Source of the DNA: Nitzschia sp. DOCU1
Lineage: Eukaryota; Bacillariophyta; Bacillariophyceae; Bacillariales; Bacillariaceae
Assembly (NCBI GenBank): GCA_951394045.1
Contig: OX595999.1
Location: 1,488,001-1,552,000, forward strand
Direction of reading: 5' to 3'
Length of the DNA: 64,000 bases
Shown here: piece by piece, positions 5,030 to 40,630 of the stretch
How positions within the stretch are numbered: the stretch's first letter is position 1
Layout: every line of letters begins with the position of its first letter
Translations under genes and position numbers: made by a program
Notes under the pieces: generated by a model
Seen by the model: only the letters and a program-made list of their open reading frames with translations
Database searches by the model: none
Told to the model about the DNA's origin: nothing

Positions 5030-7223
5030 CGTCGAGTTGTTTTTGTAGCTTATTTTTGTACCAAAATTCCATTTTCCCGTATGTAGAAATAGCAATACCG
5101 CTGTGGGAGTTTGTGGAATTTTCATGGTGTTGACGTGGCGATTCCACCCGGGAGTGGACCAAAACTGTGGAATTTTTGGGTCAATTAATCCATTCAAAGT
5201 AGTCAACTCGTGCTCATGTCATACGGTATTTCACAAATTCCACTCTTGCACACGTGTGTTTGAGATGCAACAACAAACAATGACAACACCAATGCATCCG
5301 GCCCATGTGCCAATACGGACTGCAAACCTGGGTACTTGCACAGCAAACCACCAAATGCACCCATCAGCATGATTTGATTGTACGCCGTGCAAGTAAACAG
5401 GTTTTCGGTTTGCACTGAACGATTTGCTGGAAGGTGCCCCCACCCCAAACGAGTGCTTTGGGCTGAACAATTGCAGCAACAATCAACCTGCTGCCGCTGG
5501 AAGAAATGATGATGATGATGATGATGATTCATTTGACGAAGACAATGGTCCCACAAATGGAGTTGACCCCCCAAGATGGATCAAGAACAAATTGCCAAGA
5601 AGAAAGGGCATTCAGCTGAGTGCCTTGGCCGGTTTGACTGCGGTGGTGCCAATGATTGTTGTGACCCAAAGAAAAAACACAACAAGGAAGATCCAGACAA
5701 GAAGAAATGTGCAATATTTATTGGAGAATGCCAAGCCCTATCAAGGAAACGATGGCCTGAGCAGCCATAAATATTGCTGGCTGGTAATAATGTGGCTGTA
5801 ACAAGGAGTATATTGCTGTCCTTGTTGCTGCCATCCAATAAGAAAGACAACGAATGGTTGGCAGCTAGAAAGAAAAAGAAATTGTAGACTTTGCATACTA
5901 ATAGTAGAATCTATCGCACTACTAGGTACTAAAATTTAGAGTTAAAGCGGCGCTCTAGCAGCAGAGACTTGATGAATAGAGTTATTCTTTCATTGTTGGC
6001 TGCTCTCATGTCGCCCATTCAACTTTATCAGGAGCAAGAATGTACAACAAAGTACTTTAGTACTGTGTACAGAATAGAGTGAACAGTACTATACCTGCTG
6101 TCAGAAAATAGCTATGGTAGATAGCGAGAGAAAGGTATGAAGTTGGCCATCCAGTTGATCAACACTCCATTTTGCGCCGACTCCTTGGTTTTATTGGCAA
6201 TGTTGTTCGACTGGCTCGAACAACCAATGCGAACGCTTCCAACATAGACGATCGTTTGTTACACGGGATTGTGTGTGGAATTTTGTGTGGAGTATTTTGC
6301 GACTATTTTCACGATAGTTCCATTTCCAGAATTACAGAGAAATAAGGGGACGACATTCCAGTTATTATTAGTAGAGCGACAGGTCTTTTGGTCTTTGTTC
6401 GGGCGAAGGCATGAAGCGCAAAAGGCGTGTGCGAACCGCATTAACTCTATTTAAAGTCAAAGGAGTCATCCCCACTCCTCGGTCGGTGGTTGTATGCATA
6501 CCTGGGGTAGCTGAGGTTGCCTACGTCATCCGGACATGAGTTGAGGTCGATTGAATCAATGGGTTATGGATCCCTTGGTGGTCCAGTTGAGTCGGCTATC
6601 TTGAAATGAATCAATCTTGGATCGACTCTAGCTACCGGCGTATCTTGGATCCTTGACTATTGAAGGAAATCCTGCAGTAAACCACCATATTACCACTACT
6701 ATGATGAAACCGAAGATGAAGTTGAAGATACCATTACAAGAGTCGGTTTCAATACATTTGATACTCATGGCAAGATCAAGAGGTTGATCTTGCAATTCTA
6801 GCACATGATAATTCTAGTTCGTATCGAAATCTACGTATATTTAAGTATTATCTTTACAGTTGTTTTGAAACTGCTGCTATCGGCTGTGGCTACCGGTAGC
6901 TCCCCAGACAAGTACATGGTGCGGAGAAACCAGAGAAACCAAGACAACACAACGAAAGAAATAGAAACAGCACATATCCACCATACAGCACGAACAATCA
7001 GCATGAAGCCCCCCTACGAAAAAGAAAGGAACGTGCCCCCCCCCCCCCCCGTGGGATAGCTAGTATGTACTATGAGTAGAACATGAAGAATCCTCGCACT
7101 GCAGGACGGCGAGACCACGGGTCAAGAATCTCCTAGGTTTGGGTATGGCACGACAACGGTATAAAACTAGCTTTATCTTGGTTTGGCAAAGCCACCGCAG
7201 CTGTGACGAGAATCGTTGGTGGA
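5030..7223. other. Gene-poor intergenic region
   Basis: There is no convincing gene in about 2.2 kb. A GAT trinucleotide run at about 5507-5529 creates an Asp tract in a 125-codon plus-strand frame (5424-5801) and a His tract in a minus-strand frame; neither shows a family. The overlapping frame 5576-5770 encodes a small Cys/Lys-rich peptide of unknown reality. A run of 15 C lies at 7036-7050. A stop-bounded acidic stretch of about 45 codons ends near 6800 (translation includes DETEDEVEDTITRVGFNTFD) and could be the tail of a decayed gene. Confidence 0.45.
5507..5529. repeat. GAT trinucleotide microsatellite
   Basis: About seven perfect GAT units. It produces spurious Asp and His homopolymers in overlapping frames. 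Confidence 0.8.
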
Positions 7224-7231
7224 CCTTTGTT
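7224..7231 (+). repeat. Left target-site duplication of transposon array (8 bp)
   Basis: CCTTTGTT immediately precedes the first transposon copy. The same 8 bp recurs at 23768-23775 directly after the third copy. Eight-base duplications are typical of hAT, P, KDZ/Zisupton and related DDE transposases. Confidence 0.8.
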
Positions 7232-7258
7232 GGCCTATGTCCAGCTACGTAGGTAGCT
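7232..7258 (+). repeat. Left terminal inverted repeat, copy 1
   Basis: 27 bp beginning GGCCTATGTCC and ending ACGTAGGTAGCT. It is inversely repeated at 12713-12739 with six mismatches. The equivalents in the other copies are at 12746-12772 and 18260-18286. Confidence 0.8.
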
Positions 7259-7756
7259 AAATTTTTATAAAGAAAAAGAAAAGAAAAAGAAGGGGAGAAG
7301 TGCGAAGAATCTCGCTTCATCAATAAGCAAGAAAATCCTTTAGCAGCCCCCGCGATTTAGCGTTGCTTCAGGGCGAAAAGTTGGGGAAGCCATGCCGGCG
7401 TGCGCGCCGGCCATAGTCCAACTGGTCCAATATTTTTTGTCCGAATCAATCATCGGAAGGATGAGCTGTGACAATGGTGCAACACAAAAAAGCCATTCAC
7501 TTTGAAACTTTCATTTGCAATTACTCCTCCAGTACTGCTGCTGCACTTCCACCACTGTATACCTATGGACTACTTGAATTGTGCTATACAGTGGCTGCAG
7601 CTAGAATATTATGTGATTGCTAGTTATTATTAAATTACTACTTGAAAAAGCTTCATTACCGAGGTAAATGCAACAACAAGTTGGACAAAGTATTGTAATC
7701 CATGCATTCCTAACATCATCATACAATTTCCCCACCATGTCCTCTTTATCTAGTTC

Positions 7757-10700
7757 TTACCAATGTGGGAATTTAGGATCAACGGGAAGGTTGTGTGCCT
7801 CCCTAATCTTCCGCCAGTTGGAAATCATTGTGTAACACTGCAGCTTGTTTACAAACGTTGGGTCTCCAATATTGTAACCGTTTGGTACCTCCCAATGTTG
7901 ATATCTCTTGTCAGCAGGAACCTGGCAGTATTCAAGAGAGTTCTTTTCTGCCTTTCTTGCATGGTGCTTCCCTGATCGCTCCCAGCCGCATCTGTAACAT
8001 CTTTGGACCCGGCGTGGGGCTCTAGCTTTTGGAGTGCTTCCTTGCTTCATGTGAATTCGTGGTAAAACAATGTGGGACACTGCATGCTGCCGTGGCGGCA
8101 ATGTCGCACTGTGAAGCTCAGGCGGGGGCACAAAAAGGATGGGATGCAATGCTTGATCCTGGACGGTTACAGCCATGGGTTCTGGGAAGGGTGGTGGGCC
8201 ATTGGCAGGGCCTCTAAAAAGCTGCCCTGCAGCGGATTCTTTGAATTGCGATTGCAAAGTGGCAACGCCATGAGGGACGGTGGTTGCTTGTGTGATGCCA
8301 GTAGCTGGGCTGACGATAGAGATGATCTGATGGCGAGTTTGCACTCGATTTCTCTCTCTTTGGAATTCATCAAAGTATTCACGAATGATCTGGGTGCTTT
8401 TACCAAGTATTTGCTTTCGTTCTGTAGGAGGTTTTAGTCGCTCTTGTTCTGCCCTTGCATTATGGGCAGAACACAAAGCACCAAAGTCCACGGCAGTGTG
8501 TTGGCCCTCACGCCTCCCTGTGGTGTACTTTGGTAGAAGCTCATTGAATAGGGCTTTATCATCCGATGTCATCTTTGTCACAGATAGCGGCAGTTGAATT
8601 TTGTCGTCCTGGCTTCCCTGGTGGTCGCATAGTTTCGTATAGATCTGTTCTGTATTGTCCGTAGATAGTAACTGAATCGCAGCATCCACTGTACTACTAA
8701 TAGTGCTCGCACCAGATTCTTCAACCAGGTTCAAGGAACGCCTGACCCATGGGATGTAGCAAGTTTCCCCTGTGCTTTCAAAATCATTTGGATTTGGCAA
8801 GTCACCAAAATAGCTGTCGACACCATGCGCATCTGCAGACAATTGTAAATTGTGTATGGTTTCGTGCTGGTAGAACCCTGCATATCGTGAAGGTGTCATG
8901 CCCCGTTCCACTTCACGGTCATGGTTCCACCGATGAACGAAGACTGCGATTAGGCAAATTGCCAATAGAGGCGCACTGAAAGTTGCCCTAAGGATGTCAC
9001 GTAGCTGTCGGTGGAAACCTTCCAGCTGTGAGGTTCCTCGAACACAGTGCAGCGTCTTCTGCCCGCTACTACTGGTCGTATAGTAGTAATAGTCAACATC
9101 AGTCTCGTCTGACACGCAACCTTTTCGGATGTGCTTGAGGAAATTTTCCACTTCTTTCCACGTCTGCTTTGAAAAAAGTGGCTCGCCTGTCTTGGCATCC
9201 TTGATATTTGCCATGAATCGACACGCACCTGCCACCCGGTCCTCCAAAGTCTTAGGATCTGGAATGATTCGTTCTATGCCTTCAAGAATTTTGGAGCTGG
9301 GACAAGACATACGGCGCTCTGCTTCTACCCGTGCTTTCCTTGGGTCGTTGGACCAACGTTTGCCAACCTCCTGCTCAAGCCTTTTGCTAAGTAGTACTGT
9401 CTCTTCTTCAATTCTTTTGGGATCTGGAATCATGATGCTATCGCGTAACAGCCCCCCGCCCTCATCATAGAACCCATGCGACTTCTTCCATGTTTTCTTA
9501 ATCCGCTTCTGGTAGTGGAAACAGTCGCCTTTCACACCATTTCGCTCAAAAATTGTATAGTCACCAACTTCTACATGAAGTGGGGCACAGCCTTGGTGGC
9601 CATCTATCAATACAAAATCCACATCCTGATCATCATTGGCCCCTGACACATCCACTGGCCTATCTGGGTAGTTGTCAATTGTTGTGTCCTCTGGCAGTGC
9701 ACGTGCCAAAACTTCATCGTCAACCGGTGCGATTCCTGCAGCAGGAACATCACCATTGGCAACACTAGCAGGAACAATTTCGGCAGCAACGGCAGCAACA
9801 ACCTCATTGCATTCCCCTGTTGCCATTGGGTGGCGTCGTTGACATCGCTCAAGGTCCTCTTCATTCGACAAAGTCATGCAACTTCTTTTCCAAGCAACCT
9901 CTCGACCATTCTTAAAAGCACTTGCAATTGACTCATTTGACATCACCTGCACGTGGGGAGGCAAAGGGATCATGACGGATCCATCAATTACATGAAGAAT
10001 TTTTACCTCAATCCTGTCGTAGTGATGTCGTTTCTGTTCTTGCCCGATGATTTCTTCTAGATCAAATCTGACCCGAACAACTTTCCCAATCCCACAGATC
10101 TTGTTGCCATTACGAGGAAACAAGCGCACAATTGGGAGGTCCAGCAACTCTTCCCGGGTGGGTTTTTTGTGAACATTCACTAATGCTTGGAACAATTCAT
10201 GGAGCTGCAAACCTACCCACGCATCCAGTGCTGCGTAGTTGATGCACTCTTGCGACAGTACTGGTGAACTCCACACTGACCGAGCCAAGCTCTTATCAAG
10301 CCGTCGTCCTAAGAAATATAACACTAGGTCTTTCAAACTTTTCTTCTGTCGCGCTGGTAGTAGGCGGGCATTTTCTGCAACCGACCGACAATCAGAGAAC
10401 TTGTGGTCCCTTCCAATGAAGTCCTCTGGAAACTTTCGCTTAAGTCGTGTCACATCCGCCTTTACTCCCACACCAACAAGGCAGGCATTTTCGTGCGTGA
10501 GCAGTCTCCGTAATAAATCATTCGACCGACACCATGAGGTAACATCCACTGGATATTCCCCACTTGAATTCTTTATCATCTGCGGGAATGTTTGTCGAAT
10601 TGATACAACTACAATGAGCCTGATGCTTGGTTCAATTTCGGTATCAGAATCATTCCTTGTTTGGGGTCTGTGCATTGCTAACTGTAGTGTCTCAGGAAAT

Positions 10701-12376
10701 TGTTCGCTTCTATCTGCAGGGGTTAGGGAATCCCATTCAATGTCAAATCCCACGGGAACCTTGACTCCTTTGTCGAACTCAGCCAGAAACTTAAGTGCGA
10801 CTTCCTCGAAAGCTTGGTACGTTCTAACCCACACGGGATTTGTCGGAAGCATTGCTGGGGGCAACGATGACTCCTCTAGTAACCCATCAACATTGGGATC
10901 ATTCTTCCCAAGCGATGGGAATGCACGCAATAGTGCCCTATATTCCTGGCAGCAGCTATCAGTGTAGAATAGCCGCACTTCCTCAAATCCTCGCACTTGA
11001 TATCGGTGGCGAATACCCCTAAGAATGTGCTCAACCTCATCATTGTTGCCCGCTAGAACAAAGTTGGTAGAGACAACTTCATTGTACTCATTCATCACAG
11101 TGTAAATGGAGTCAAAGGCACGCACCACTGCATTGTCTTTGTCACGGTTAAAAACAAACTTTGTCACCTTGTAGGACTTGTCGCCTTTTAAAACCCTTCC
11201 ACCCTTCAGCTGAAGGCTGCGTTCGTAGTAGGGTAGGAGCTTTAGAACCCGCAAAATAAAATGATGTTCAAGATATTGGCGAGAAGGTAGATCAACTGCA
11301 ACATCAGACAGCTCTAGCTGCATAATATTGCGGTAGTCGTCAACAGACATTGGAGTAAGGGAACGTTTCACTGATGGATTGTTGAAGAATGAATCAGCTT
11401 TTTCTTGGGCCTGCCGGAAAAGATTATTCCGCAGGCTAAGGACAGTCCTTCGAACCGAGAGAAAGGAGGATTTTTGAGCAACGTCTTCAAAGACCCAGTC
11501 ACTGAAGCCACTCGTAATTGCTCGCTGTCGTGTCATGACAAGGCCTAGATGGCTTCGAAGAGTCTTTGGTAGATATTTCAATACCTCTGGATCGTAGCCT
11601 GTAAAATAATAACGATGATCGACAACATCATCCTCATTGCCTATTTTCTCCAATTCCTGCCTGCCCTTCCTGAGATTACAGTAGTAACGGCTCGCAAATA
11701 AGTAGCCACTTGACCCATCTGCATCATGAAATGGGCGAACAAAATTTGTAAAAAAGGAGTCACGACAAGTGCAGGGTGGAGATTGGAAGCCATGCCATTT
11801 ACATGGCATCTGACCAGTTGGTAGTTCCCTTGGATCCGTCTTGTCAGGGGCGAAGAATTTTATACGAGCAAATTTTGGGGCAAGGAAGTCGGCAGCAGTG
11901 GGGAAAGGAAAGCGCGAGCCTTCCCTCCAAGTATATTCGTTGTCTTCCCATGGGAAGTGCCTGAAGTCAGTAGTCCACTGTCGATGCTGGTTTGACTGTG
12001 GAACAGCATTGACCATGGACCGCCTGAGTTCATGCATGACTTTCCCAATTTTCAGTCGAAACAATGGTGGGACATTTGCCATATTTACTCCAGGCAATGG
12101 GTCCGAAACAGTAGGCTCTCTTGCTTCAGGCAGATTGTTATTCATTTGTGTCAAATTAGTATCGCCACTGGTAGTATCACTAGTCGTAGTTGACTGTGAA
12201 TTTGATTGTTTGTTCTGGTTGCAATGCGGCAGGAAGAAGCCATTGCGGCGATTTGTCAGCTCTTTTTCCCTAGCAAGACGTTCACGCTCAATCTCAGCAG
12301 CCGTTCGACGAGTATATTTCTCCCCACGCTTTCTACCACGACCCTGACAGTTCTCTTGTCGTCTTGGCTCCTCCAT
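7757..12376 (-). CDS. DDE transposase with inserted 3'-5' exonuclease, copy 1
   Basis: Intronless, 1,539 aa. Order of parts: a basic N-terminus (GRGRKRGEKYTRR, a possible nuclear signal); a Cys/His cluster starting at C192 (PCKWHG then CTC), probably zinc-binding and reminiscent of the DUF6729 region of fungal exonuclease-domain proteins; GDKSYKVTK (D399) and FYTDSCCQEY (D473), resembling the first two aspartates of an RNase H-fold transposase; a complete DEDDy exonuclease (FDIEWD D545/E547, GVKAD D641, YAALD Y714/D718) as in WRN/RNase D; GDCFHYQKRI (D951xxH954), the C/DxxH motif known between D2 and E in MULE, hAT and KDZ transposases; RGTSQLEGFH (E1119), candidate third catalytic acid; and a C-terminal CxxC...HH...C knuckle from C1460. 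It probably catalyses excision and insertion of its own element; the role of the exonuclease is unknown. Family placement is inference. Confidence 0.75.
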   Translation of the reverse strand: MEEPRRQENCQGRGRKRGEKYTRRTAAEIERERLAREKELTNRRNGFFLPHCNQNKQSNSQSTTTSDTTSGDTNLTQMNNNLPEAREPTVSDPLPGVNMANVPPLFRLKIGKVMHELRRSMVNAVPQSNQHRQWTTDFRHFPWEDNEYTWREGSRFPFPTAADFLAPKFARIKFFAPDKTDPRELPTGQMPCKWHGFQSPPCTCRDSFFTNFVRPFHDADGSSGYLFASRYYCNLRKGRQELEKIGNEDDVVDHRYYFTGYDPEVLKYLPKTLRSHLGLVMTRQRAITSGFSDWVFEDVAQKSSFLSVRRTVLSLRNNLFRQAQEKADSFFNNPSVKRSLTPMSVDDYRNIMQLELSDVAVDLPSRQYLEHHFILRVLKLLPYYERSLQLKGGRVLKGDKSYKVTKFVFNRDKDNAVVRAFDSIYTVMNEYNEVVSTNFVLAGNNDEVEHILRGIRHRYQVRGFEEVRLFYTDSCCQEYRALLRAFPSLGKNDPNVDGLLEESSLPPAMLPTNPVWVRTYQAFEEVALKFLAEFDKGVKVPVGFDIEWDSLTPADRSEQFPETLQLAMHRPQTRNDSDTEIEPSIRLIVVVSIRQTFPQMIKNSSGEYPVDVTSWCRSNDLLRRLLTHENACLVGVGVKADVTRLKRKFPEDFIGRDHKFSDCRSVAENARLLPARQKKSLKDLVLYFLGRRLDKSLARSVWSSPVLSQECINYAALDAWVGLQLHELFQALVNVHKKPTREELLDLPIVRLFPRNGNKICGIGKVVRVRFDLEEIIGQEQKRHHYDRIEVKILHVIDGSVMIPLPPHVQVMSNESIASAFKNGREVAWKRSCMTLSNEEDLERCQRRHPMATGECNEVVAAVAAEIVPASVANGDVPAAGIAPVDDEVLARALPEDTTIDNYPDRPVDVSGANDDQDVDFVLIDGHQGCAPLHVEVGDYTIFERNGVKGDCFHYQKRIKKTWKKSHGFYDEGGGLLRDSIMIPDPKRIEEETVLLSKRLEQEVGKRWSNDPRKARVEAERRMSCPSSKILEGIERIIPDPKTLEDRVAGACRFMANIKDAKTGEPLFSKQTWKEVENFLKHIRKGCVSDETDVDYYYYTTSSSGQKTLHCVRGTSQLEGFHRQLRDILRATFSAPLLAICLIAVFVHRWNHDREVERGMTPSRYAGFYQHETIHNLQLSADAHGVDSYFGDLPNPNDFESTGETCYIPWVRRSLNLVEESGASTISSTVDAAIQLLSTDNTEQIYTKLCDHQGSQDDKIQLPLSVTKMTSDDKALFNELLPKYTTGRREGQHTAVDFGALCSAHNARAEQERLKPPTERKQILGKSTQIIREYFDEFQRERNRVQTRHQIISIVSPATGITQATTVPHGVATLQSQFKESAAGQLFRGPANGPPPFPEPMAVTVQDQALHPILFVPPPELHSATLPPRQHAVSHIVLPRIHMKQGSTPKARAPRRVQRCYRCGWERSGKHHARKAEKNSLEYCQVPADKRYQHWEVPNGYNIGDPTFVNKLQCYTMISNWRKIREAHNLPVDPKFPHW

Positions 12377-12595
12377 TGCGACAGTAGGGATAGTGAATGT
12401 GACGTGACGACGTAATAATAATTGTCTTGTCCATCATGTCCATTGCGGATCTCGGTGTTTCATGTTTCGATAATTCATGCGGCTCGGCATTGGAGGGAGT
12501 GGCGGGCTCGCAAGATATCAAGAATACACAAAAAGAAGTTTCAAATTGGTAAATTGTATGTCAATTTTTATTCTTTTGTGTCCTAGTGTTAAACG

Positions 12596-12712
12596 AGCTA
12601 TCAAAGCGTCCTTAAACAAGCTATCAAAGTAGGACACGATGAGGACGCGAATTCGGTCAAAAACCATTGATTTTGGACAGAAGTGGGGCATTTCTGTCAT
12701 AAGCTATCAAAG
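12596..12712 (+). repeat. Subterminal AGCTATCAAAG repeats
   Basis: Three exact direct copies of AGCTATCAAAG lie at 12596-12606, 12619-12629 and 12702-12712, with the same pattern in copies 2 and 3. They lie between the transposase gene's start and the right inverted repeat, so they could serve transposase binding, the promoter, or both. I saw no equivalent cluster at the left end. Confidence 0.65.
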
Positions 12713-12739
12713 AGCTACCTACGTGGTTCGACACTCGCC
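12713..12739 (-). repeat. Right terminal inverted repeat, copy 1
   Basis: The reverse complement of this site matches the left end over 27 bp (21 identities). Equivalents are at 18227-18253 and 23741-23767. The inner half is perfectly conserved; the outer half differs, as expected if the inner half is the protein-binding part. Confidence 0.8.
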
Positions 12740-12745
12740 CCTTTG
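12740..12745 (+). other. 6-bp junction between copies 1 and 2
   Basis: CCTTTG separates the right end of copy 1 from the left end of copy 2. It equals the first six bases of the flanking 8-bp target duplication CCTTTGTT, lacking TT. The same junction lies at 18254-18259 between copies 2 and 3. Confidence 0.8.
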
Positions 12746-15700
12746 GGCCTATGTCCAGCTACGTAGGTAGCTAAATTTTTATAAAGAAAAAGAAAAGAAA
12801 AAGAAGGGGAGAAGTGCGAAGAATCTCGCTTCATCAATAAGCAAGAAAATCCTTTAGCAGCCCCCGCGATTTAGCGTTGCTTCAGGGCGAAAAGTTGGGG
12901 AAGCCATGCCGGCGTGCGCGCCGGCCATAGTCCAACTGGTCCAATATTTTTTGTCCGAATCAATCATCGGAAGGATGAGCTGTGACAATGGTGCAACACA
13001 AAAAAGCCATTCACTTTGAAACTTTCATTTGCAATTACTCCTCCAGTACTGCTGCTGCACTTCCACCACTGTATACCTATGGACTACTTGAATTGTGCTA
13101 TACAGTGGCTGCAGCTAGAATATTATGTGATTGCTAGTTATTATTAAATTACTACTTGAAAAAGCTTCATTACCGAGGTAAATGCAACAACAAGTTGGAC
13201 AAAGTATTGTAATCCATGCATTCCTAACATCATCATACAATTTCCCCACCATGTCCTCTTTATCTAGTTCTTACCAATGTGGGAATTTAGGATCAACGGG
13301 AAGGTTGTGTGCCTCCCTAATCTTCCGCCAGTTGGAAATCATTGTGTAACACTGCAGCTTGTTTACAAACGTTGGGTCTCCAATATTGTAACCGTTTGGT
13401 ACCTCCCAATGTTGATATCTCTTGTCAGCAGGAACCTGGCAGTATTCAAGAGAGTTCTTTTCTGCCTTTCTTGCATGGTGCTTCCCTGATCGCTCCCAGC
13501 CGCATCTGTAACATCTTTGGACCCGGCGTGGGGCTCTAGCTTTTGGAGTGCTTCCTTGCTTCATGTGAATTCGTGGTAAAACAATGTGGGACACTGCATG
13601 CTGCCGTGGCGGCAATGTCGCACTGTGAAGCTCAGGCGGGGGCACAAAAAGGATGGGATGCAATGCTTGATCCTGGACGGTTACAGCCATGGGTTCTGGG
13701 AAGGGTGGTGGGCCATTGGCAGGGCCTCTAAAAAGCTGCCCTGCAGCGGATTCTTTGAATTGCGATTGCAAAGTGGCAACGCCATGAGGGACGGTGGTTG
13801 CTTGTGTGATGCCAGTAGCTGGGCTGACGATAGAGATGATCTGATGGCGAGTTTGCACTCGATTTCTCTCTCTTTGGAATTCATCAAAGTATTCACGAAT
13901 GATCTGGGTGCTTTTACCAAGTATTTGCTTTCGTTCTGTAGGAGGTTTTAGTCGCTCTTGTTCTGCCCTTGCATTATGGGCAGAACACAAAGCACCAAAG
14001 TCCACGGCAGTGTGTTGGCCCTCACGCCTCCCTGTGGTGTACTTTGGTAGAAGCTCATTGAATAGGGCTTTATCATCCGATGTCATCTTTGTCACAGATA
14101 GCGGCAGTTGAATTTTGTCGTCCTGGCTTCCCTGGTGGTCGCATAGTTTCGTATAGATCTGTTCTGTATTGTCCGTAGATAGTAACTGAATCGCAGCATC
14201 CACTGTACTACTAATAGTGCTCGCACCAGATTCTTCAACCAGGTTCAAGGAACGCCTGACCCATGGGATGTAGCAAGTTTCCCCTGTGCTTTCAAAATCA
14301 TTTGGATTTGGCAAGTCACCAAAATAGCTGTCGACACCATGCGCATCTGCAGACAATTGTAAATTGTGTATGGTTTCGTGCTGGTAGAACCCTGCATATC
14401 GTGAAGGTGTCATGCCCCGTTCCACTTCACGGTCATGGTTCCACCGATGAACGAAGACTGCGATTAGGCAAATTGCCAATAGAGGCGCACTGAAAGTTGC
14501 CCTAAGGATGTCACGTAGCTGTCGGTGGAAACCTTCCAGCTGTGAGGTTCCTCGAACACAGTGCAGCGTCTTCTGCCCGCTACTACTGGTCGTATAGTAG
14601 TAATAGTCAACATCAGTCTCGTCTGACACGCAACCTTTTCGGATGTGCTTGAGGAAATTTTCCACTTCTTTCCACGTCTGCTTTGAAAAAAGTGGCTCGC
14701 CTGTCTTGGCATCCTTGATATTTGCCATGAATCGACACGCACCTGCCACCCGGTCCTCCAAAGTCTTAGGATCTGGAATGATTCGTTCTATGCCTTCAAG
14801 AATTTTGGAGCTGGGACAAGACATACGGCGCTCTGCTTCTACCCGTGCTTTCCTTGGGTCGTTGGACCAACGTTTGCCAACCTCCTGCTCAAGCCTTTTG
14901 CTAAGTAGTACTGTCTCTTCTTCAATTCTTTTGGGATCTGGAATCATGATGCTATCGCGTAACAGCCCCCCGCCCTCATCATAGAACCCATGCGACTTCT
15001 TCCATGTTTTCTTAATCCGCTTCTGGTAGTGGAAACAGTCGCCTTTCACACCATTTCGCTCAAAAATTGTATAGTCACCAACTTCTACATGAAGTGGGGC
15101 ACAGCCTTGGTGGCCATCTATCAATACAAAATCCACATCCTGATCATCATTGGCCCCTGACACATCCACTGGCCTATCTGGGTAGTTGTCAATTGTTGTG
15201 TCCTCTGGCAGTGCACGTGCCAAAACTTCATCGTCAACCGGTGCGATTCCTGCAGCAGGAACATCACCATTGGCAACACTAGCAGGAACAATTTCGGCAG
15301 CAACGGCAGCAACAACCTCATTGCATTCCCCTGTTGCCATTGGGTGGCGTCGTTGACATCGCTCAAGGTCCTCTTCATTCGACAAAGTCATGCAACTTCT
15401 TTTCCAAGCAACCTCTCGACCATTCTTAAAAGCACTTGCAATTGACTCATTTGACATCACCTGCACGTGGGGAGGCAAAGGGATCATGACGGATCCATCA
15501 ATTACATGAAGAATTTTTACCTCAATCCTGTCGTAGTGATGTCGTTTCTGTTCTTGCCCGATGATTTCTTCTAGATCAAATCTGACCCGAACAACTTTCC
15601 CAATCCCACAGATCTTGTTGCCATTACGAGGAAACAAGCGCACAATTGGGAGGTCCAGCAACTCTTCCCGGGTGGGTTTTTTGTGAACATTCACTAATGC

Positions 15701-18253
15701 TTGGAACAATTCATGGAGCTGCAAACCTACCCACGCATCCAGTGCTGCGTAGTTGATGCACTCTTGCGACAGTACTGGTGAACTCCACACTGACCGAGCC
15801 AAGCTCTTATCAAGCCGTCGTCCTAAGAAATATAACACTAGGTCTTTCAAACTTTTCTTCTGTCGCGCTGGTAGTAGGCGGGCATTTTCTGCAACCGACC
15901 GACAATCAGAGAACTTGTGGTCCCTTCCAATGAAGTCCTCTGGAAACTTTCGCTTAAGTCGTGTCACATCCGCCTTTACTCCCACACCAACAAGGCAGGC
16001 ATTTTCGTGCGTGAGCAGTCTCCGTAATAAATCATTCGACCGACACCATGAGGTAACATCCACTGGATATTCCCCACTTGAATTCTTTATCATCTGCGGG
16101 AATGTTTGTCGAATTGATACAACTACAATGAGCCTGATGCTTGGTTCAATTTCGGTATCAGAATCATTCCTTGTTTGGGGTCTGTGCATTGCTAACTGTA
16201 GTGTCTCAGGAAATTGTTCGCTTCTATCTGCAGGGGTTAGGGAATCCCATTCAATGTCAAATCCCACGGGAACCTTGACTCCTTTGTCGAACTCAGCCAG
16301 AAACTTAAGTGCGACTTCCTCGAAAGCTTGGTACGTTCTAACCCACACGGGATTTGTCGGAAGCATTGCTGGGGGCAACGATGACTCCTCTAGTAACCCA
16401 TCAACATTGGGATCATTCTTCCCAAGCGATGGGAATGCACGCAATAGTGCCCTATATTCCTGGCAGCAGCTATCAGTGTAGAATAGCCGCACTTCCTCAA
16501 ATCCTCGCACTTGATATCGGTGGCGAATACCCCTAAGAATGTGCTCAACCTCATCATTGTTGCCCGCTAGAACAAAGTTGGTAGAGACAACTTCATTGTA
16601 CTCATTCATCACAGTGTAAATGGAGTCAAAGGCACGCACCACTGCATTGTCTTTGTCACGGTTAAAAACAAACTTTGTCACCTTGTAGGACTTGTCGCCT
16701 TTTAAAACCCTTCCACCCTTCAGCTGAAGGCTGCGTTCGTAGTAGGGTAGGAGCTTTAGAACCCGCAAAATAAAATGATGTTCAAGATATTGGCGAGAAG
16801 GTAGATCAACTGCAACATCAGACAGCTCTAGCTGCATAATATTGCGGTAGTCGTCAACAGACATTGGAGTAAGGGAACGTTTCACTGATGGATTGTTGAA
16901 GAATGAATCAGCTTTTTCTTGGGCCTGCCGGAAAAGATTATTCCGCAGGCTAAGGACAGTCCTTCGAACCGAGAGAAAGGAGGATTTTTGAGCAACGTCT
17001 TCAAAGACCCAGTCACTGAAGCCACTCGTAATTGCTCGCTGTCGTGTCATGACAAGGCCTAGATGGCTTCGAAGAGTCTTTGGTAGATATTTCAATACCT
17101 CTGGATCGTAGCCTGTAAAATAATAACGATGATCGACAACATCATCCTCATTGCCTATTTTCTCCAATTCCTGCCTGCCCTTCCTGAGATTACAGTAGTA
17201 ACGGCTTGCAAATAAGTAGCCACTTGACCCATCTGCATCATGAAATGGGCGAACAAAATTTGTAAAAAAGGAGTCACGACAAGTGCAGGGTGGAGATTGG
17301 AAGCCATGCCATTTACATGGCATCTGACCAGTTGGTAGTTCCCTTGGATCCGTCTTGTCAGGGGCGAAGAATTTTATACGAGCAAATTTTGGGGCAAGGA
17401 AGTCGGCAGCAGTGGGGAAAGGAAAGCGCGAGCCTTCCCTCCAAGTATATTCGTTGTCTTCCCATGGGAAGTGCCTGAAGTCAGTAGTCCACTGTCGATG
17501 CTGGTTTGACTGTGGAACAGCATTGACCATGGACCGCCTGAGTTCATGCATGACTTTCCCAATTTTCAGTCGAAACAATGGTGGGACATTTGCCATATTT
17601 ACTCCAGGCAATGGGTCCGAAACAGTAGGCTCTCTTGCTTCAGGCAGATTGTTATTCATTTGTGTCAAATTAGTATCGCCACTGGTAGTATCACTAGTCG
17701 TAGTTGACTGTGAATTTGATTGTTTGTTCTGGTTGCAATGCGGCAGGAAGAAGCCATTGCGGCGATTTGTCAGCTCTTTTTCCCTAGCAAGACGTTCACG
17801 CTCAATCTCAGCAGCCGTTCGACGAGTATATTTCTCCCCACGCTTTCTACCACGACCCTGACAGTTCTCTTGTCGTCTTGGCTCCTCCATTGCGACAGTA
17901 GGGATAGTGAATGTGACGTGACGACGTAATAATAATTGTCTTGTCCATCATGTCCATTGCGGATCTCGGTGTTTCATGTTTCGATAATTCATGCGGCTCG
18001 GCATTGGAGGGAGTGGCGGGCTCGCAAGATATCAAGAATACACAAAAAGAAGTTTCAAATTGGTAAATTGTATGTCAATTTTTATTCTTTTGTGTCCTAG
18101 TGTTAAACGAGCTATCAAAGCGTCCTTAAACAAGCTATCAAAGTAGGACACGATGAGGACGCGAATTCGGTCAAAAACCATTGATTTTGGACAGAAGTGG
18201 GGCATTTCTGTCATAAGCTATCAAAGAGCTACCTACGTGGTTCGACACTCGCC
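12746..18253 (-). mobile_element. TIR DNA transposon, copy 2 of 3
   Basis: Exactly 5,514 bp downstream of copy 1 and the same length (5,508 bp). It appears identical except for one base I found: T at 17207 where copies 1 and 3 have C (11693 and 22721). This is a silent change in an Ala codon of the minus-strand gene (GCG to GCA). Inverted repeats are at 12746-12772 and 18227-18253. Confidence 0.85.
13271..17890 (-). CDS. DDE transposase with inserted 3'-5' exonuclease, copy 2
   Basis: The 1,539-aa product is identical to that of copy 1, including D399, D473, the exonuclease residues D545/E547/D641/Y714/D718, D951xxH954 and E1119. The single nucleotide difference noticed is synonymous. Being intact, it could supply transposase for all three copies. 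Confidence 0.75.
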   Translation of the reverse strand: MEEPRRQENCQGRGRKRGEKYTRRTAAEIERERLAREKELTNRRNGFFLPHCNQNKQSNSQSTTTSDTTSGDTNLTQMNNNLPEAREPTVSDPLPGVNMANVPPLFRLKIGKVMHELRRSMVNAVPQSNQHRQWTTDFRHFPWEDNEYTWREGSRFPFPTAADFLAPKFARIKFFAPDKTDPRELPTGQMPCKWHGFQSPPCTCRDSFFTNFVRPFHDADGSSGYLFASRYYCNLRKGRQELEKIGNEDDVVDHRYYFTGYDPEVLKYLPKTLRSHLGLVMTRQRAITSGFSDWVFEDVAQKSSFLSVRRTVLSLRNNLFRQAQEKADSFFNNPSVKRSLTPMSVDDYRNIMQLELSDVAVDLPSRQYLEHHFILRVLKLLPYYERSLQLKGGRVLKGDKSYKVTKFVFNRDKDNAVVRAFDSIYTVMNEYNEVVSTNFVLAGNNDEVEHILRGIRHRYQVRGFEEVRLFYTDSCCQEYRALLRAFPSLGKNDPNVDGLLEESSLPPAMLPTNPVWVRTYQAFEEVALKFLAEFDKGVKVPVGFDIEWDSLTPADRSEQFPETLQLAMHRPQTRNDSDTEIEPSIRLIVVVSIRQTFPQMIKNSSGEYPVDVTSWCRSNDLLRRLLTHENACLVGVGVKADVTRLKRKFPEDFIGRDHKFSDCRSVAENARLLPARQKKSLKDLVLYFLGRRLDKSLARSVWSSPVLSQECINYAALDAWVGLQLHELFQALVNVHKKPTREELLDLPIVRLFPRNGNKICGIGKVVRVRFDLEEIIGQEQKRHHYDRIEVKILHVIDGSVMIPLPPHVQVMSNESIASAFKNGREVAWKRSCMTLSNEEDLERCQRRHPMATGECNEVVAAVAAEIVPASVANGDVPAAGIAPVDDEVLARALPEDTTIDNYPDRPVDVSGANDDQDVDFVLIDGHQGCAPLHVEVGDYTIFERNGVKGDCFHYQKRIKKTWKKSHGFYDEGGGLLRDSIMIPDPKRIEEETVLLSKRLEQEVGKRWSNDPRKARVEAERRMSCPSSKILEGIERIIPDPKTLEDRVAGACRFMANIKDAKTGEPLFSKQTWKEVENFLKHIRKGCVSDETDVDYYYYTTSSSGQKTLHCVRGTSQLEGFHRQLRDILRATFSAPLLAICLIAVFVHRWNHDREVERGMTPSRYAGFYQHETIHNLQLSADAHGVDSYFGDLPNPNDFESTGETCYIPWVRRSLNLVEESGASTISSTVDAAIQLLSTDNTEQIYTKLCDHQGSQDDKIQLPLSVTKMTSDDKALFNELLPKYTTGRREGQHTAVDFGALCSAHNARAEQERLKPPTERKQILGKSTQIIREYFDEFQRERNRVQTRHQIISIVSPATGITQATTVPHGVATLQSQFKESAAGQLFRGPANGPPPFPEPMAVTVQDQALHPILFVPPPELHSATLPPRQHAVSHIVLPRIHMKQGSTPKARAPRRVQRCYRCGWERSGKHHARKAEKNSLEYCQVPADKRYQHWEVPNGYNIGDPTFVNKLQCYTMISNWRKIREAHNLPVDPKFPHW

Positions 18254-18259
18254 CCTTTG
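18254..18259 (+). other. 6-bp junction between copies 2 and 3
   Basis: CCTTTG again separates the right end of copy 2 (CGCC) from the left end of copy 3 (GGCC), exactly as at 12740-12745. Confidence 0.8.
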
Positions 18260-21200
18260 GGCCTATGTCCAGCTACGTAGGTAGCTAAATTTTTATAAAG
18301 AAAAAGAAAAGAAAAAGAAGGGGAGAAGTGCGAAGAATCTCGCTTCATCAATAAGCAAGAAAATCCTTTAGCAGCCCCCGCGATTTAGCGTTGCTTCAGG
18401 GCGAAAAGTTGGGGAAGCCATGCCGGCGTGCGCGCCGGCCATAGTCCAACTGGTCCAATATTTTTTGTCCGAATCAATCATCGGAAGGATGAGCTGTGAC
18501 AATGGTGCAACACAAAAAAGCCATTCACTTTGAAACTTTCATTTGCAATTACTCCTCCAGTACTGCTGCTGCACTTCCACCACTGTATACCTATGGACTA
18601 CTTGAATTGTGCTATACAGTGGCTGCAGCTAGAATATTATGTGATTGCTAGTTATTATTAAATTACTACTTGAAAAAGCTTCATTACCGAGGTAAATGCA
18701 ACAACAAGTTGGACAAAGTATTGTAATCCATGCATTCCTAACATCATCATACAATTTCCCCACCATGTCCTCTTTATCTAGTTCTTACCAATGTGGGAAT
18801 TTAGGATCAACGGGAAGGTTGTGTGCCTCCCTAATCTTCCGCCAGTTGGAAATCATTGTGTAACACTGCAGCTTGTTTACAAACGTTGGGTCTCCAATAT
18901 TGTAACCGTTTGGTACCTCCCAATGTTGATATCTCTTGTCAGCAGGAACCTGGCAGTATTCAAGAGAGTTCTTTTCTGCCTTTCTTGCATGGTGCTTCCC
19001 TGATCGCTCCCAGCCGCATCTGTAACATCTTTGGACCCGGCGTGGGGCTCTAGCTTTTGGAGTGCTTCCTTGCTTCATGTGAATTCGTGGTAAAACAATG
19101 TGGGACACTGCATGCTGCCGTGGCGGCAATGTCGCACTGTGAAGCTCAGGCGGGGGCACAAAAAGGATGGGATGCAATGCTTGATCCTGGACGGTTACAG
19201 CCATGGGTTCTGGGAAGGGTGGTGGGCCATTGGCAGGGCCTCTAAAAAGCTGCCCTGCAGCGGATTCTTTGAATTGCGATTGCAAAGTGGCAACGCCATG
19301 AGGGACGGTGGTTGCTTGTGTGATGCCAGTAGCTGGGCTGACGATAGAGATGATCTGATGGCGAGTTTGCACTCGATTTCTCTCTCTTTGGAATTCATCA
19401 AAGTATTCACGAATGATCTGGGTGCTTTTACCAAGTATTTGCTTTCGTTCTGTAGGAGGTTTTAGTCGCTCTTGTTCTGCCCTTGCATTATGGGCAGAAC
19501 ACAAAGCACCAAAGTCCACGGCAGTGTGTTGGCCCTCACGCCTCCCTGTGGTGTACTTTGGTAGAAGCTCATTGAATAGGGCTTTATCATCCGATGTCAT
19601 CTTTGTCACAGATAGCGGCAGTTGAATTTTGTCGTCCTGGCTTCCCTGGTGGTCGCATAGTTTCGTATAGATCTGTTCTGTATTGTCCGTAGATAGTAAC
19701 TGAATCGCAGCATCCACTGTACTACTAATAGTGCTCGCACCAGATTCTTCAACCAGGTTCAAGGAACGCCTGACCCATGGGATGTAGCAAGTTTCCCCTG
19801 TGCTTTCAAAATCATTTGGATTTGGCAAGTCACCAAAATAGCTGTCGACACCATGCGCATCTGCAGACAATTGTAAATTGTGTATGGTTTCGTGCTGGTA
19901 GAACCCTGCATATCGTGAAGGTGTCATGCCCCGTTCCACTTCACGGTCATGGTTCCACCGATGAACGAAGACTGCGATTAGGCAAATTGCCAATAGAGGC
20001 GCACTGAAAGTTGCCCTAAGGATGTCACGTAGCTGTCGGTGGAAACCTTCCAGCTGTGAGGTTCCTCGAACACAGTGCAGCGTCTTCTGCCCGCTACTAC
20101 TGGTCGTATAGTAGTAATAGTCAACATCAGTCTCGTCTGACACGCAACCTTTTCGGATGTGCTTGAGGAAATTTTCCACTTCTTTCCACGTCTGCTTTGA
20201 AAAAAGTGGCTCGCCTGTCTTGGCATCCTTGATATTTGCCATGAATCGACACGCACCTGCCACCCGGTCCTCCAAAGTCTTAGGATCTGGAATGATTCGT
20301 TCTATGCCTTCAAGAATTTTGGAGCTGGGACAAGACATACGGCGCTCTGCTTCTACCCGTGCTTTCCTTGGGTCGTTGGACCAACGTTTGCCAACCTCCT
20401 GCTCAAGCCTTTTGCTAAGTAGTACTGTCTCTTCTTCAATTCTTTTGGGATCTGGAATCATGATGCTATCGCGTAACAGCCCCCCGCCCTCATCATAGAA
20501 CCCATGCGACTTCTTCCATGTTTTCTTAATCCGCTTCTGGTAGTGGAAACAGTCGCCTTTCACACCATTTCGCTCAAAAATTGTATAGTCACCAACTTCT
20601 ACATGAAGTGGGGCACAGCCTTGGTGGCCATCTATCAATACAAAATCCACATCCTGATCATCATTGGCCCCTGACACATCCACTGGCCTATCTGGGTAGT
20701 TGTCAATTGTTGTGTCCTCTGGCAGTGCACGTGCCAAAACTTCATCGTCAACCGGTGCGATTCCTGCAGCAGGAACATCACCATTGGCAACACTAGCAGG
20801 AACAATTTCGGCAGCAACGGCAGCAACAACCTCATTGCATTCCCCTGTTGCCATTGGGTGGCGTCGTTGACATCGCTCAAGGTCCTCTTCATTCGACAAA
20901 GTCATGCAACTTCTTTTCCAAGCAACCTCTCGACCATTCTTAAAAGCACTTGCAATTGACTCATTTGACATCACCTGCACGTGGGGAGGCAAAGGGATCA
21001 TGACGGATCCATCAATTACATGAAGAATTTTTACCTCAATCCTGTCGTAGTGATGTCGTTTCTGTTCTTGCCCGATGATTTCTTCTAGATCAAATCTGAC
21101 CCGAACAACTTTCCCAATCCCACAGATCTTGTTGCCATTACGAGGAAACAAGCGCACAATTGGGAGGTCCAGCAACTCTTCCCGGGTGGGTTTTTTGTGA

Positions 21201-23767
21201 ACATTCACTAATGCTTGGAACAATTCATGGAGCTGCAAACCTACCCACGCATCCAGTGCTGCGTAGTTGATGCACTCTTGCGACAGTACTGGTGAACTCC
21301 ACACTGACCGAGCCAAGCTCTTATCAAGCCGTCGTCCTAAGAAATATAACACTAGGTCTTTCAAACTTTTCTTCTGTCGCGCTGGTAGTAGGCGGGCATT
21401 TTCTGCAACCGACCGACAATCAGAGAACTTGTGGTCCCTTCCAATGAAGTCCTCTGGAAACTTTCGCTTAAGTCGTGTCACATCCGCCTTTACTCCCACA
21501 CCAACAAGGCAGGCATTTTCGTGCGTGAGCAGTCTCCGTAATAAATCATTCGACCGACACCATGAGGTAACATCCACTGGATATTCCCCACTTGAATTCT
21601 TTATCATCTGCGGGAATGTTTGTCGAATTGATACAACTACAATGAGCCTGATGCTTGGTTCAATTTCGGTATCAGAATCATTCCTTGTTTGGGGTCTGTG
21701 CATTGCTAACTGTAGTGTCTCAGGAAATTGTTCGCTTCTATCTGCAGGGGTTAGGGAATCCCATTCAATGTCAAATCCCACGGGAACCTTGACTCCTTTG
21801 TCGAACTCAGCCAGAAACTTAAGTGCGACTTCCTCGAAAGCTTGGTACGTTCTAACCCACACGGGATTTGTCGGAAGCATTGCTGGGGGCAACGATGACT
21901 CCTCTAGTAACCCATCAACATTGGGATCATTCTTCCCAAGCGATGGGAATGCACGCAATAGTGCCCTATATTCCTGGCAGCAGCTATCAGTGTAGAATAG
22001 CCGCACTTCCTCAAATCCTCGCACTTGATATCGGTGGCGAATACCCCTAAGAATGTGCTCAACCTCATCATTGTTGCCCGCTAGAACAAAGTTGGTAGAG
22101 ACAACTTCATTGTACTCATTCATCACAGTGTAAATGGAGTCAAAGGCACGCACCACTGCATTGTCTTTGTCACGGTTAAAAACAAACTTTGTCACCTTGT
22201 AGGACTTGTCGCCTTTTAAAACCCTTCCACCCTTCAGCTGAAGGCTGCGTTCGTAGTAGGGTAGGAGCTTTAGAACCCGCAAAATAAAATGATGTTCAAG
22301 ATATTGGCGAGAAGGTAGATCAACTGCAACATCAGACAGCTCTAGCTGCATAATATTGCGGTAGTCGTCAACAGACATTGGAGTAAGGGAACGTTTCACT
22401 GATGGATTGTTGAAGAATGAATCAGCTTTTTCTTGGGCCTGCCGGAAAAGATTATTCCGCAGGCTAAGGACAGTCCTTCGAACCGAGAGAAAGGAGGATT
22501 TTTGAGCAACGTCTTCAAAGACCCAGTCACTGAAGCCACTCGTAATTGCTCGCTGTCGTGTCATGACAAGGCCTAGATGGCTTCGAAGAGTCTTTGGTAG
22601 ATATTTCAATACCTCTGGATCGTAGCCTGTAAAATAATAACGATGATCGACAACATCATCCTCATTGCCTATTTTCTCCAATTCCTGCCTGCCCTTCCTG
22701 AGATTACAGTAGTAACGGCTCGCAAATAAGTAGCCACTTGACCCATCTGCATCATGAAATGGGCGAACAAAATTTGTAAAAAAGGAGTCACGACAAGTGC
22801 AGGGTGGAGATTGGAAGCCATGCCATTTACATGGCATCTGACCAGTTGGTAGTTCCCTTGGATCCGTCTTGTCAGGGGCGAAGAATTTTATACGAGCAAA
22901 TTTTGGGGCAAGGAAGTCGGCAGCAGTGGGGAAAGGAAAGCGCGAGCCTTCCCTCCAAGTATATTCGTTGTCTTCCCATGGGAAGTGCCTGAAGTCAGTA
23001 GTCCACTGTCGATGCTGGTTTGACTGTGGAACAGCATTGACCATGGACCGCCTGAGTTCATGCATGACTTTCCCAATTTTCAGTCGAAACAATGGTGGGA
23101 CATTTGCCATATTTACTCCAGGCAATGGGTCCGAAACAGTAGGCTCTCTTGCTTCAGGCAGATTGTTATTCATTTGTGTCAAATTAGTATCGCCACTGGT
23201 AGTATCACTAGTCGTAGTTGACTGTGAATTTGATTGTTTGTTCTGGTTGCAATGCGGCAGGAAGAAGCCATTGCGGCGATTTGTCAGCTCTTTTTCCCTA
23301 GCAAGACGTTCACGCTCAATCTCAGCAGCCGTTCGACGAGTATATTTCTCCCCACGCTTTCTACCACGACCCTGACAGTTCTCTTGTCGTCTTGGCTCCT
23401 CCATTGCGACAGTAGGGATAGTGAATGTGACGTGACGACGTAATAATAATTGTCTTGTCCATCATGTCCATTGCGGATCTCGGTGTTTCATGTTTCGATA
23501 ATTCATGCGGCTCGGCATTGGAGGGAGTGGCGGGCTCGCAAGATATCAAGAATACACAAAAAGAAGTTTCAAATTGGTAAATTGTATGTCAATTTTTATT
23601 CTTTTGTGTCCTAGTGTTAAACGAGCTATCAAAGCGTCCTTAAACAAGCTATCAAAGTAGGACACGATGAGGACGCGAATTCGGTCAAAAACCATTGATT
23701 TTGGACAGAAGTGGGGCATTTCTGTCATAAGCTATCAAAGAGCTACCTACGTGGTTCGACACTCGCC
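18260..23767 (-). mobile_element. TIR DNA transposon, copy 3 of 3
   Basis: Third head-to-tail unit of 5,508 bp with the same inverted repeats (18260-18286 and 23741-23767), subterminal repeats and gene. Its right end is followed by the 8-bp target duplication at 23768-23775 and then unrelated sequence, which defines the end of the array. Confidence 0.85.
18785..23404 (-). CDS. DDE transposase with inserted 3'-5' exonuclease, copy 3
   Basis: The 1,539-aa product is identical to those of copies 1 and 2, with the same catalytic residues and zinc-binding clusters. The leader between the ATG and the right end of the unit (about 360 bp) must hold the promoter and is the same in all three copies, so each copy probably carries its own promoter. 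Confidence 0.75.
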   Translation of the reverse strand: MEEPRRQENCQGRGRKRGEKYTRRTAAEIERERLAREKELTNRRNGFFLPHCNQNKQSNSQSTTTSDTTSGDTNLTQMNNNLPEAREPTVSDPLPGVNMANVPPLFRLKIGKVMHELRRSMVNAVPQSNQHRQWTTDFRHFPWEDNEYTWREGSRFPFPTAADFLAPKFARIKFFAPDKTDPRELPTGQMPCKWHGFQSPPCTCRDSFFTNFVRPFHDADGSSGYLFASRYYCNLRKGRQELEKIGNEDDVVDHRYYFTGYDPEVLKYLPKTLRSHLGLVMTRQRAITSGFSDWVFEDVAQKSSFLSVRRTVLSLRNNLFRQAQEKADSFFNNPSVKRSLTPMSVDDYRNIMQLELSDVAVDLPSRQYLEHHFILRVLKLLPYYERSLQLKGGRVLKGDKSYKVTKFVFNRDKDNAVVRAFDSIYTVMNEYNEVVSTNFVLAGNNDEVEHILRGIRHRYQVRGFEEVRLFYTDSCCQEYRALLRAFPSLGKNDPNVDGLLEESSLPPAMLPTNPVWVRTYQAFEEVALKFLAEFDKGVKVPVGFDIEWDSLTPADRSEQFPETLQLAMHRPQTRNDSDTEIEPSIRLIVVVSIRQTFPQMIKNSSGEYPVDVTSWCRSNDLLRRLLTHENACLVGVGVKADVTRLKRKFPEDFIGRDHKFSDCRSVAENARLLPARQKKSLKDLVLYFLGRRLDKSLARSVWSSPVLSQECINYAALDAWVGLQLHELFQALVNVHKKPTREELLDLPIVRLFPRNGNKICGIGKVVRVRFDLEEIIGQEQKRHHYDRIEVKILHVIDGSVMIPLPPHVQVMSNESIASAFKNGREVAWKRSCMTLSNEEDLERCQRRHPMATGECNEVVAAVAAEIVPASVANGDVPAAGIAPVDDEVLARALPEDTTIDNYPDRPVDVSGANDDQDVDFVLIDGHQGCAPLHVEVGDYTIFERNGVKGDCFHYQKRIKKTWKKSHGFYDEGGGLLRDSIMIPDPKRIEEETVLLSKRLEQEVGKRWSNDPRKARVEAERRMSCPSSKILEGIERIIPDPKTLEDRVAGACRFMANIKDAKTGEPLFSKQTWKEVENFLKHIRKGCVSDETDVDYYYYTTSSSGQKTLHCVRGTSQLEGFHRQLRDILRATFSAPLLAICLIAVFVHRWNHDREVERGMTPSRYAGFYQHETIHNLQLSADAHGVDSYFGDLPNPNDFESTGETCYIPWVRRSLNLVEESGASTISSTVDAAIQLLSTDNTEQIYTKLCDHQGSQDDKIQLPLSVTKMTSDDKALFNELLPKYTTGRREGQHTAVDFGALCSAHNARAEQERLKPPTERKQILGKSTQIIREYFDEFQRERNRVQTRHQIISIVSPATGITQATTVPHGVATLQSQFKESAAGQLFRGPANGPPPFPEPMAVTVQDQALHPILFVPPPELHSATLPPRQHAVSHIVLPRIHMKQGSTPKARAPRRVQRCYRCGWERSGKHHARKAEKNSLEYCQVPADKRYQHWEVPNGYNIGDPTFVNKLQCYTMISNWRKIREAHNLPVDPKFPHW

Positions 23768-23775
23768 CCTTTGTT
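23768..23775 (+). repeat. Right target-site duplication of transposon array (8 bp)
   Basis: CCTTTGTT, identical to 7224-7231 on the other side of the 16.5-kb array. Confidence 0.8.
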
Positions 23776-29649: not shown

Positions 29650-30560
29650 CGCAACCGACCTACTAGATAAGTAGAACGCACTCCAAAGGACTTTTTCCGT
29701 CGGATGTACGATATTGTGGGTCGGCGGGGCGGATGGAGGAGGGATGGATTCTCAGGGAGGGCCTCGAATGATGACCGACGATTCCTTCTTTGGTCTTGGT
29801 CGTTTTCTCCTCGTTGTGCGAAGGTGCCGATCGCTCTGCGATTGCGAACCCGAATCGAATCATCATCATCGGTGGGAGATGAAAAGGGGGCTATTGTCTG
29901 TGTTGGTTTGTTTTATTTATTGACCGCGCACCATTTTGTTCCCGGCACCAGAAAGTGCAGCAGGTTGCCTTGGATATTACCGAGTATGTTCCTTGTGCCA
30001 TAGAATCGTGCTGGTGGTTCTGTCATAATTATCTAAGTATGTATTGAAGCGAATCGGAACTGTCTTTTGGGGATATAATGACGACGGATCGGGTTGAGAG
30101 AGAGATAAAAGGTAGCGCTTGGCTTCCGAAAGGCCGAACGAGCAGAAGACGTCCAACGATGCATCATGACGACGGAATGCTGTTTGTTGGTAGCGCATCA
30201 TCTGTTTCCCGGCACCAGAAAGTGCAGCCGTCGGCCATATATATCGATTGTGCACTGTGAAAGTTCCGGCAGTTCTGCATTAAAAAAGTAATAAGTGTGT
30301 ACTGTACCGAATCCGAACAATTTCGGCTTCTCTGTAGAACGAACAATCCTACAACGTGATAATGCGAACCCCGAACCCCGAATCCCGAACCCCTACCGGT
30401 AGTAGAATTTGCCATTCCAAAAAAGATACGCTAGCGACGGGAAAATCAGAAAGAGTCATCCTGGCGGTGCAATCGCCGCCATCCAGTGGTCATTCCGTTC
30501 CGATTCTCAACAACACAATTTCCAGTTCATGATCATCCCCACCAGAGAGCAGCAGCCACC
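29650..30560. promoter_or_regulatory. Divergent promoter region with duplicated segment
   Basis: This 0.9-kb spacer serves both the minus-strand diflavin reductase and the plus-strand hybrid-cluster protein. A segment beginning about 29925 recurs 267 bp downstream: an exact CCCGGCACCAGAAAGTGCAG lies at 29941 and 30208. The similarity then continues more loosely for about 100 bp to GAATCGGAAC / GAATCCGAAC. A CGAACCC-like 7-bp tandem repeat lies at about 30366-30397. These are candidate shared control elements; no factor can be named. Confidence 0.5.
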
Positions 30561-34304: not shown

Positions 34305-34619
34305 TGTTAAAATAACCGGTTCGTAAACAGGTTATGGGCTTGCTTTTAGAACATTTGGTTCTTAGTATTATGAGCTCGTTTGAGCATCTACTTTCTAATC
34401 TTGCGATCTTTTGATCGTGCCTTTTCTGATCTTGCGGAAGCTAGTCTGAGTCTTGACGGAAGTCTTTACGATCTTTGTCGCTTCCGCAAGACTAGCTCTC
34501 CTCCGGATCCTAGTCGTTCTGCGAGTAGTACTGAGTCGTGAGACCCAGTCGATTCGAGTCACTAGTCGACTCGTCCGAATGGCCTTCAAACCATTCATTC
34601 GAATCGCCGTAATCGAACA
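34305..34619 (-). repeat. 3' LTR
   Basis: 315 bp, TGTTAAAATAACC...AATCGAACA on the plus strand. It contains an 11-bp inverted repeat CTTGCGGAAGC / GCTTCCGCAAG at 34431-34441 and 34480-34490 that could form a hairpin in the transcript. Confidence 0.93.
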
Positions 34620-34654
34620 CTCCCTCTTTTGATTGCCATGAGTCGAGTCGCCTT

Positions 34655-39009: not shown

Positions 39010-39045
39010 GTAGTTCCATGCATCAGGGAGCCCAACCCGTCGCCG

Positions 39046-40605: not shown

Positions 40606-40630
40606 GGTGGATGTTGATTTAGTTGCGTTA

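Follow-up and report, generated by a model that had tools for sequence, protein, structure and literature searches.

A tandem triplet in Nitzschia sp. DOCU1 that probably represents a new family of exonuclease-bearing Dada transposons

In a 64,000-nucleotide stretch of the genome of Nitzschia sp. DOCU1 (contig OX595999.1; the whole stretch is called the window below) a long protein is encoded three times which combines the motifs of a DDE transposase with those of a 3′–5′ exonuclease. This raises the question whether such a protein belongs to a mobile element and, if so, whether this element represents a new kind of transposon or a member of a known one. Our answer, to which we give a probability of about 0.84, is that the locus is an autonomous and probably recently active cut-and-paste transposon of the exonuclease-bearing branch of Dada, present in three head-to-tail copies, where the assignment to Dada is made by the published description of these elements.

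Layout and boundaries of the three copies

The locus is composed of three units in tandem, each exactly 5,514 bp long, which span the positions 7232–23773 and carry one open reading frame of 1,539 amino acids per unit on the minus strand. The original prediction had stated that a single intronless protein is present identically in all three copies, and this is what we find: the open reading frames 7757–12376, 13271–17890, and 18785–23404 encode identical proteins, and at the DNA level the middle copy departs from the other two by a single synonymous base at position 17207 (residue 228, Ala/Ala). The 5,514-bp periodicity begins exactly at position 7232, and this base is also the first base of the element end. 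Copy 1 (7232–12739, 5,508 bp), copy 2 (12746–18253), and copy 3 (18260–23767), all on the minus strand, are separated by two 6-bp spacers with the sequence CCTTTG at positions 12740–12745 and 18254–18259.

The left inverted repeat GGCCTATGTCCAGCTACGTAGGTAGCT (7232–7258, plus strand) has its counterpart in copy 1 at 12713–12739 on the minus strand. The left end at 7232 and the right end at 23767, the latter read as its reverse complement, match at 21 of the 27 positions, the best control among 36,284 positions at the same spacing reaching 16 of 27. The repeat begins at the very ends (GGC...GCC), is perfect at its positions 16–27 (ACGTAGGTAGCT), and is imperfect elsewhere. Directly outside, an 8-bp target-site duplication CCTTTGTT is found at 7224–7231 and again at 23768–23775, and among 47,448 positions tested this is the sole pair of equal 8-mers at the spacing of the array. 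A terminal inverted repeat together with a flanking duplication is what characterizes cut-and-paste DNA transposons, and both are present here, although the original prediction had named no element ends. In addition, three direct repeats GCTATCAAAG (at 12597, 12620, and 12703, within 12597–12712, plus strand) are located near the right end only, just inside of it, and this triplicate is present at the right end of every unit. We infer that these direct repeats are possible sub-terminal binding sites of the transposase.

The boundaries also bear on the question whether the three units could be a tandemly duplicated host gene family, that is, a domesticated transposase which is now immobile. Ordinary tandem duplication can yield head-to-tail copies, and each of the relatives described below is found on one or two contigs. 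However, the unit boundaries coincide with the inverted repeat and the flanking duplication, and the DDE acids are intact in those homologues which have letters at these positions. We therefore consider a host gene family very improbable, and the element would be a mobile one. A different concern is that the assembly turned a single insertion into a triplet, the element itself being real, as at most one base in 5,514 separates any two units. Against this, the middle copy has a base change of its own, and the internal spacers measure 6 bp as opposed to the 8 bp of the outer duplication; such an assembly artefact is in our opinion unlikely.

The window holds 26 open reading frames of at least 200 amino acids, of which 11 were scanned with Pfam. 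Outside of the array, a Copia-type LTR retrotransposon is found at 34305–40944 with a 300-bp stretch at 34305 that recurs unchanged at 40645 and with two minus-strand open reading frames which contain RVT_2 (34655–37684) and gag_pre-integrs (37540–39009). In a 171-bp tandem repeat (45961–46471) two of the copies are almost the same (98%) while a third reaches 61%, and at 27379–31970 an open reading frame for a flavodoxin/FAD/NAD reductase (minus strand) adjoins one for a Prismane protein (hybrid-cluster protein, plus strand).

Domains of the encoded protein

All residues that had been predicted as catalytic from the sequence (D399, D473, D545, E547, D641, Y714, D718, D951, H954, and E1119) are found at the predicted positions and in the predicted contexts. 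The first half of the DDE RNase H fold with D399 and D473 (about residues 395–485; 10922–11194, minus strand, as all following domains of copy 1) is modelled as strand–strand–strand–helix–strand, and it is followed by the DEDDy 3′–5′ exonuclease domain (about residues 504–735; 10172–10867) and by the second half of the RNase H fold with D951xxH954 and E1119 (about residues 946–1133; 8978–9541), which is delimited by motifs and model. In the predicted structure, which was computed with 16 sequences and reaches a pTM of only 0.46, D399 lies inside strand 31–37 and D473 just past strand 105–108, whereas D951 follows strand 584–586 and E1119 is within helix 752–766. An earlier model computed with 7 sequences (mean pLDDT 54.9, pTM 0.37) was poor outside the exonuclease and was set aside.

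By motif as well as by model order the protein has a DDE triad with a DxxH between the second D and the E, and D399, D473, and E1119 would form one active site. The exonuclease is located between the second D and the DxxH both in sequence and in the model, and it has the D-x-E, the further D, the YxxxD, the predicted fold, and the PF01612 match which define a DEDDy exonuclease. PF01612 (DNA_pol_A_exo1; 3.8e-15, residues 618–731) is the only Pfam match of the window protein up to E 10, and among the 50 matches listed per fold search exonucleases lead and these matches cover the exonuclease part. Thus, the claim that a complete DEDDy exonuclease is placed between the second D and the DxxH holds by motifs, a 16-row alignment (see below), model order, and Pfam, and, as far as can be judged from the sequence, a second enzyme, one that trims strands, appears to be built into the middle of the cutting enzyme. 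The location inside a transposase distinguishes this exonuclease from the exonuclease domain of WRN, which is found outside any transposase.

A link to KDZ-like transposases had also been drawn. Pfam includes a KDZ model, and the scan of the window protein up to E 10 gave no match to MULE, hAT, Kolobok, KDZ, or DUF6729 (PF20499), the absence of a match being no exclusion; the link to KDZ is therefore unsupported by Pfam. Two further regions of the protein contain several cysteines. A C-terminal CCHC zinc knuckle (residues 1460–1484; 7925–7999) with the residues C1460, C1463, H1471 or H1472, and C1484 follows a pattern that also occurs in the relatives P0001–P0004, and an N-terminal region (residues 191–234; 11675–11806) with Cys192, 202, 204, and 233 is perhaps a variant zinc finger.

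Relatives and membership in Dada

Three protein searches yielded 15 relatives (P0001–P0003, P0004–P0006, and P0008–P0016), of which P0001 and P0002 give full-length matches to the window protein at 49 and 45%. The searches behind P0001–P0006 scored only the ∼7,990 candidates with the largest number of shared words and may therefore have missed relatives, and the one that gave P0004–P0006 was limited to lengths of 0.55–1.75 of 841 amino acids. In viral contigs no relatives were found with the queries A1, window protein, and A5, and none were found in bacterial and archaeal genome contigs with query A1. The protein P0007 from Diacronema lutheri, which joins an aminoacyl-tRNA editing domain to a DNA_pol_A_exo1 exonuclease, was left out of A4 to A6 as its other Pfam domain is unrelated.

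The window protein and the 15 homologues make up the 16-row alignment, in which several partial proteins cause gaps. Among the rows with a letter at the respective position the catalytic residues are invariant: D399 in 11 of 11, D473 as well as D545 and E547 in 14 of 14, D641 in 16 of 16, and Y714 and D718 as well as D951, H954, and E1119 in 15 of 15 rows. We labelled the window protein and P0001–P0005 as algal-type and P0006 and P0008–P0016 as fungal-type; the genera of P0006, P0008, P0009, P0011, and P0013 we take to be basidiomycetes. Among the proteins that combine DUF6729 with DNA_pol_A_exo1, those with an organism name are from Sporobolomyces, Phenoliferia, Rhodosporidiobolus, and Mycena. 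When the profiles of the 6 algal-type and the 10 fungal-type sequences were compared by pieces, the first RNase H part scored 97.9% when set against the entire fungal-type proteins (96.7 and 93.6% with other cuts), the exonuclease 99.8%, and the second RNase H part 99.9%, with 7% for the middle linker and 85% for the C-terminal part; the N-terminal residues 150–392 gave a weak profile match to the fungal-type set (46–67% probability). Among the fungal-type members 6 of 10 match DUF6729 and 10 of 10 the exonuclease profile. These comparisons confirm the suspected kinship with the fungal proteins that combine DUF6729 with an exonuclease. The fungal proteins share with the window protein the order D, D, exonuclease, DxxH, E and are 20–24% identical to its residues 365–1225, but they lack, by the pattern used, the C-terminal CCHC which the window protein has. 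As the profile matches link the algal-type and fungal-type pieces, this order looks like one shared ancestral design when judged at the level of sequence. A tree of the exonuclease was not used, as it placed P0003 among the fungal-type rows, contained two very long branches, and had only 1 of 13 inner branches starred.

The original prediction regarded the element as part of a poorly described new superfamily. This is not supported; an identical insert at that very position had already been published in 2013 for Dada (PMC3706591). In that paper Dada is defined by a DDE transposase with DxxH, by a CCCC finger at the N-terminus and a CCHC finger at the C-terminus, and by duplications of 6–7 bp, and insertion into small RNA genes is described where the ends are clear, which applies to many families but not to all. 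Exonuclease-bearing elements from Laccaria bicolor and Ectocarpus siliculosus, listed in its table as Dada-1_LB, Dada-2_LB, and Dada-1_ES, are assigned to Dada there, and their insert is located at this same point. The window element agrees with their description in the DDE and DxxH motifs, the position of the DEDDy exonuclease, and the C-terminal CCHC; it differs in its defined ends, the imperfect 27-bp inverted repeat, the 8-bp outer duplication, and the tandem triplet. The ends of these three published elements may be undefined, as their names carry no target. According to the same text every Dada therein except those of Perkinsus has introns, whereas the open reading frame in the window has none. 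In addition, the spacing of the N-terminal cysteines differs from the published CCCC, and the duplications of 8 bp at the outer flanks and 6 bp between the copies compare with the reported 6–7 bp.

The Dada-U6, Dada-U1, and tRNA families have, as described, a DDE with DxxH and a long protein in common with the window element, but they insert into snRNA, tRNA, or 5S genes, and Dada-U6 and Dada-U1 are reported to have short sub-terminal inverted repeats in place of terminal ones (PMC3706591, PMC8869645), while the window element has an imperfect repeat at its ends. The fish Dada study PMC8869645 (2022) provides target rules, and the main text as available does not use the word exonuclease; likewise the accessible part of the Ectocarpus survey PMC12477816, in which a single Dada family of 15 copies is listed, leaves the exonuclease unmentioned. 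KolobokD (PMC9587614) is also a DDE transposon of the C/DxxH class that encodes a DEDD-type 3′–5′ exonuclease, but according to the available text this exonuclease is DEDDh and TREX/ERI1-like and the duplications of Kolobok are the 4-bp TTAA.

The insertion site was not recognised as a small RNA gene by ARAGORN, run on the window and the joined empty site, or by Rfam, run on the window and the flanks. At default settings ARAGORN found no tRNA genes in the window or the joined site, and no Rfam family was found at the gathering threshold in the whole window or up to E 10 in the left flank; two sub-threshold matches in the right flank were taken as chance. With ARAGORN at 80% a weak 73-base tRNA-like fold with seven acceptor pairs (one G–T) appeared in the joined site and was absent at 85–95%. 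We do not claim an insertion into a tRNA gene, as a tRNA-like hit across the junction is also obtained at the 80% level for 76 of 2000 random joins (18 of 2000 at 85%). No piece of 7–9 bases of the left end, in the manner of Dada-U6, was found within 60 bases of the target. The sequence to the left of the array (7160–7231) is without a long open reading frame and contains TATAAAA about 60–70 bases away from the array.

These results could also be read as a separate, still unnamed superfamily which resembles Dada, namely an algal and fungal C/DxxH lineage with an exonuclease insert, inverted repeats, and 8-bp duplications that does not target small RNA genes. The inverted repeat with the 8-bp flanking duplication, a site which neither ARAGORN nor Rfam recognises as an RNA gene, and the absence of both introns and the published N-terminal CCCC spacing speak in favor of it. 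On the contrary, the accessible text of PMC3706591 has exonuclease-bearing elements with the identical insert point within Dada, the window protein has the C-terminal CCHC, and the fungal-type proteins P0010, P0013, and P0016 show an N-terminal CxxC...CxxC. We hold a separate superfamily to be quite unlikely, and the element is best read as a new, well-preserved family of the exonuclease-bearing Dada branch and not as a new kind of transposon.

Origin of the triplet and role of the exonuclease

In such a Dada element the DDE site would cut and join the element ends, and the built-in exonuclease would trim the 3′ ends which excision or integration sets free, the role proposed in PMC3706591. Most likely the three copies arose at this very site, as the spacer CCTTTG equals the first six bases of the duplication of the site itself. 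The first insertion would have made the 8-bp duplication, and later copies would have entered its right duplication with a 6-bp stagger. Alternatively, one insertion would have been amplified locally with the loss of two bases. Insertion of all copies with a constant 8-bp duplication was rejected, as 6-bp spacers could not be produced this way. The pattern of the array is also described in PMC3706591 for Dada-U1, where tandem copies are 6 bp apart though the duplication at the flanks appears to be 8 bp long. It is tempting to extend this to the exonuclease-bearing algal and fungal elements in general, which might form a lineage separate from those Dada that target RNA genes, with inverted repeats, with duplications varying between 6 and 8 bp by exonuclease trimming, and with repeated insertion into their own duplications leading to tandem arrays; we put this forward as a tentative and rather unlikely generalization.

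The exonuclease-bearing Dada take up one short paragraph in the accessible part of PMC3706591, and our literature search found no later work on them, which is no proof of absence, and no mention of the term DUF6729. The locus leaves the picture of the transposon classes unchanged. However, the DUF6729 proteins of Pfam are now tied to a transposon family, and with an intact copy that has a single open reading frame and whose ends and flanking duplication are defined, it would become possible to test by a transposition assay what the inserted exonuclease does.
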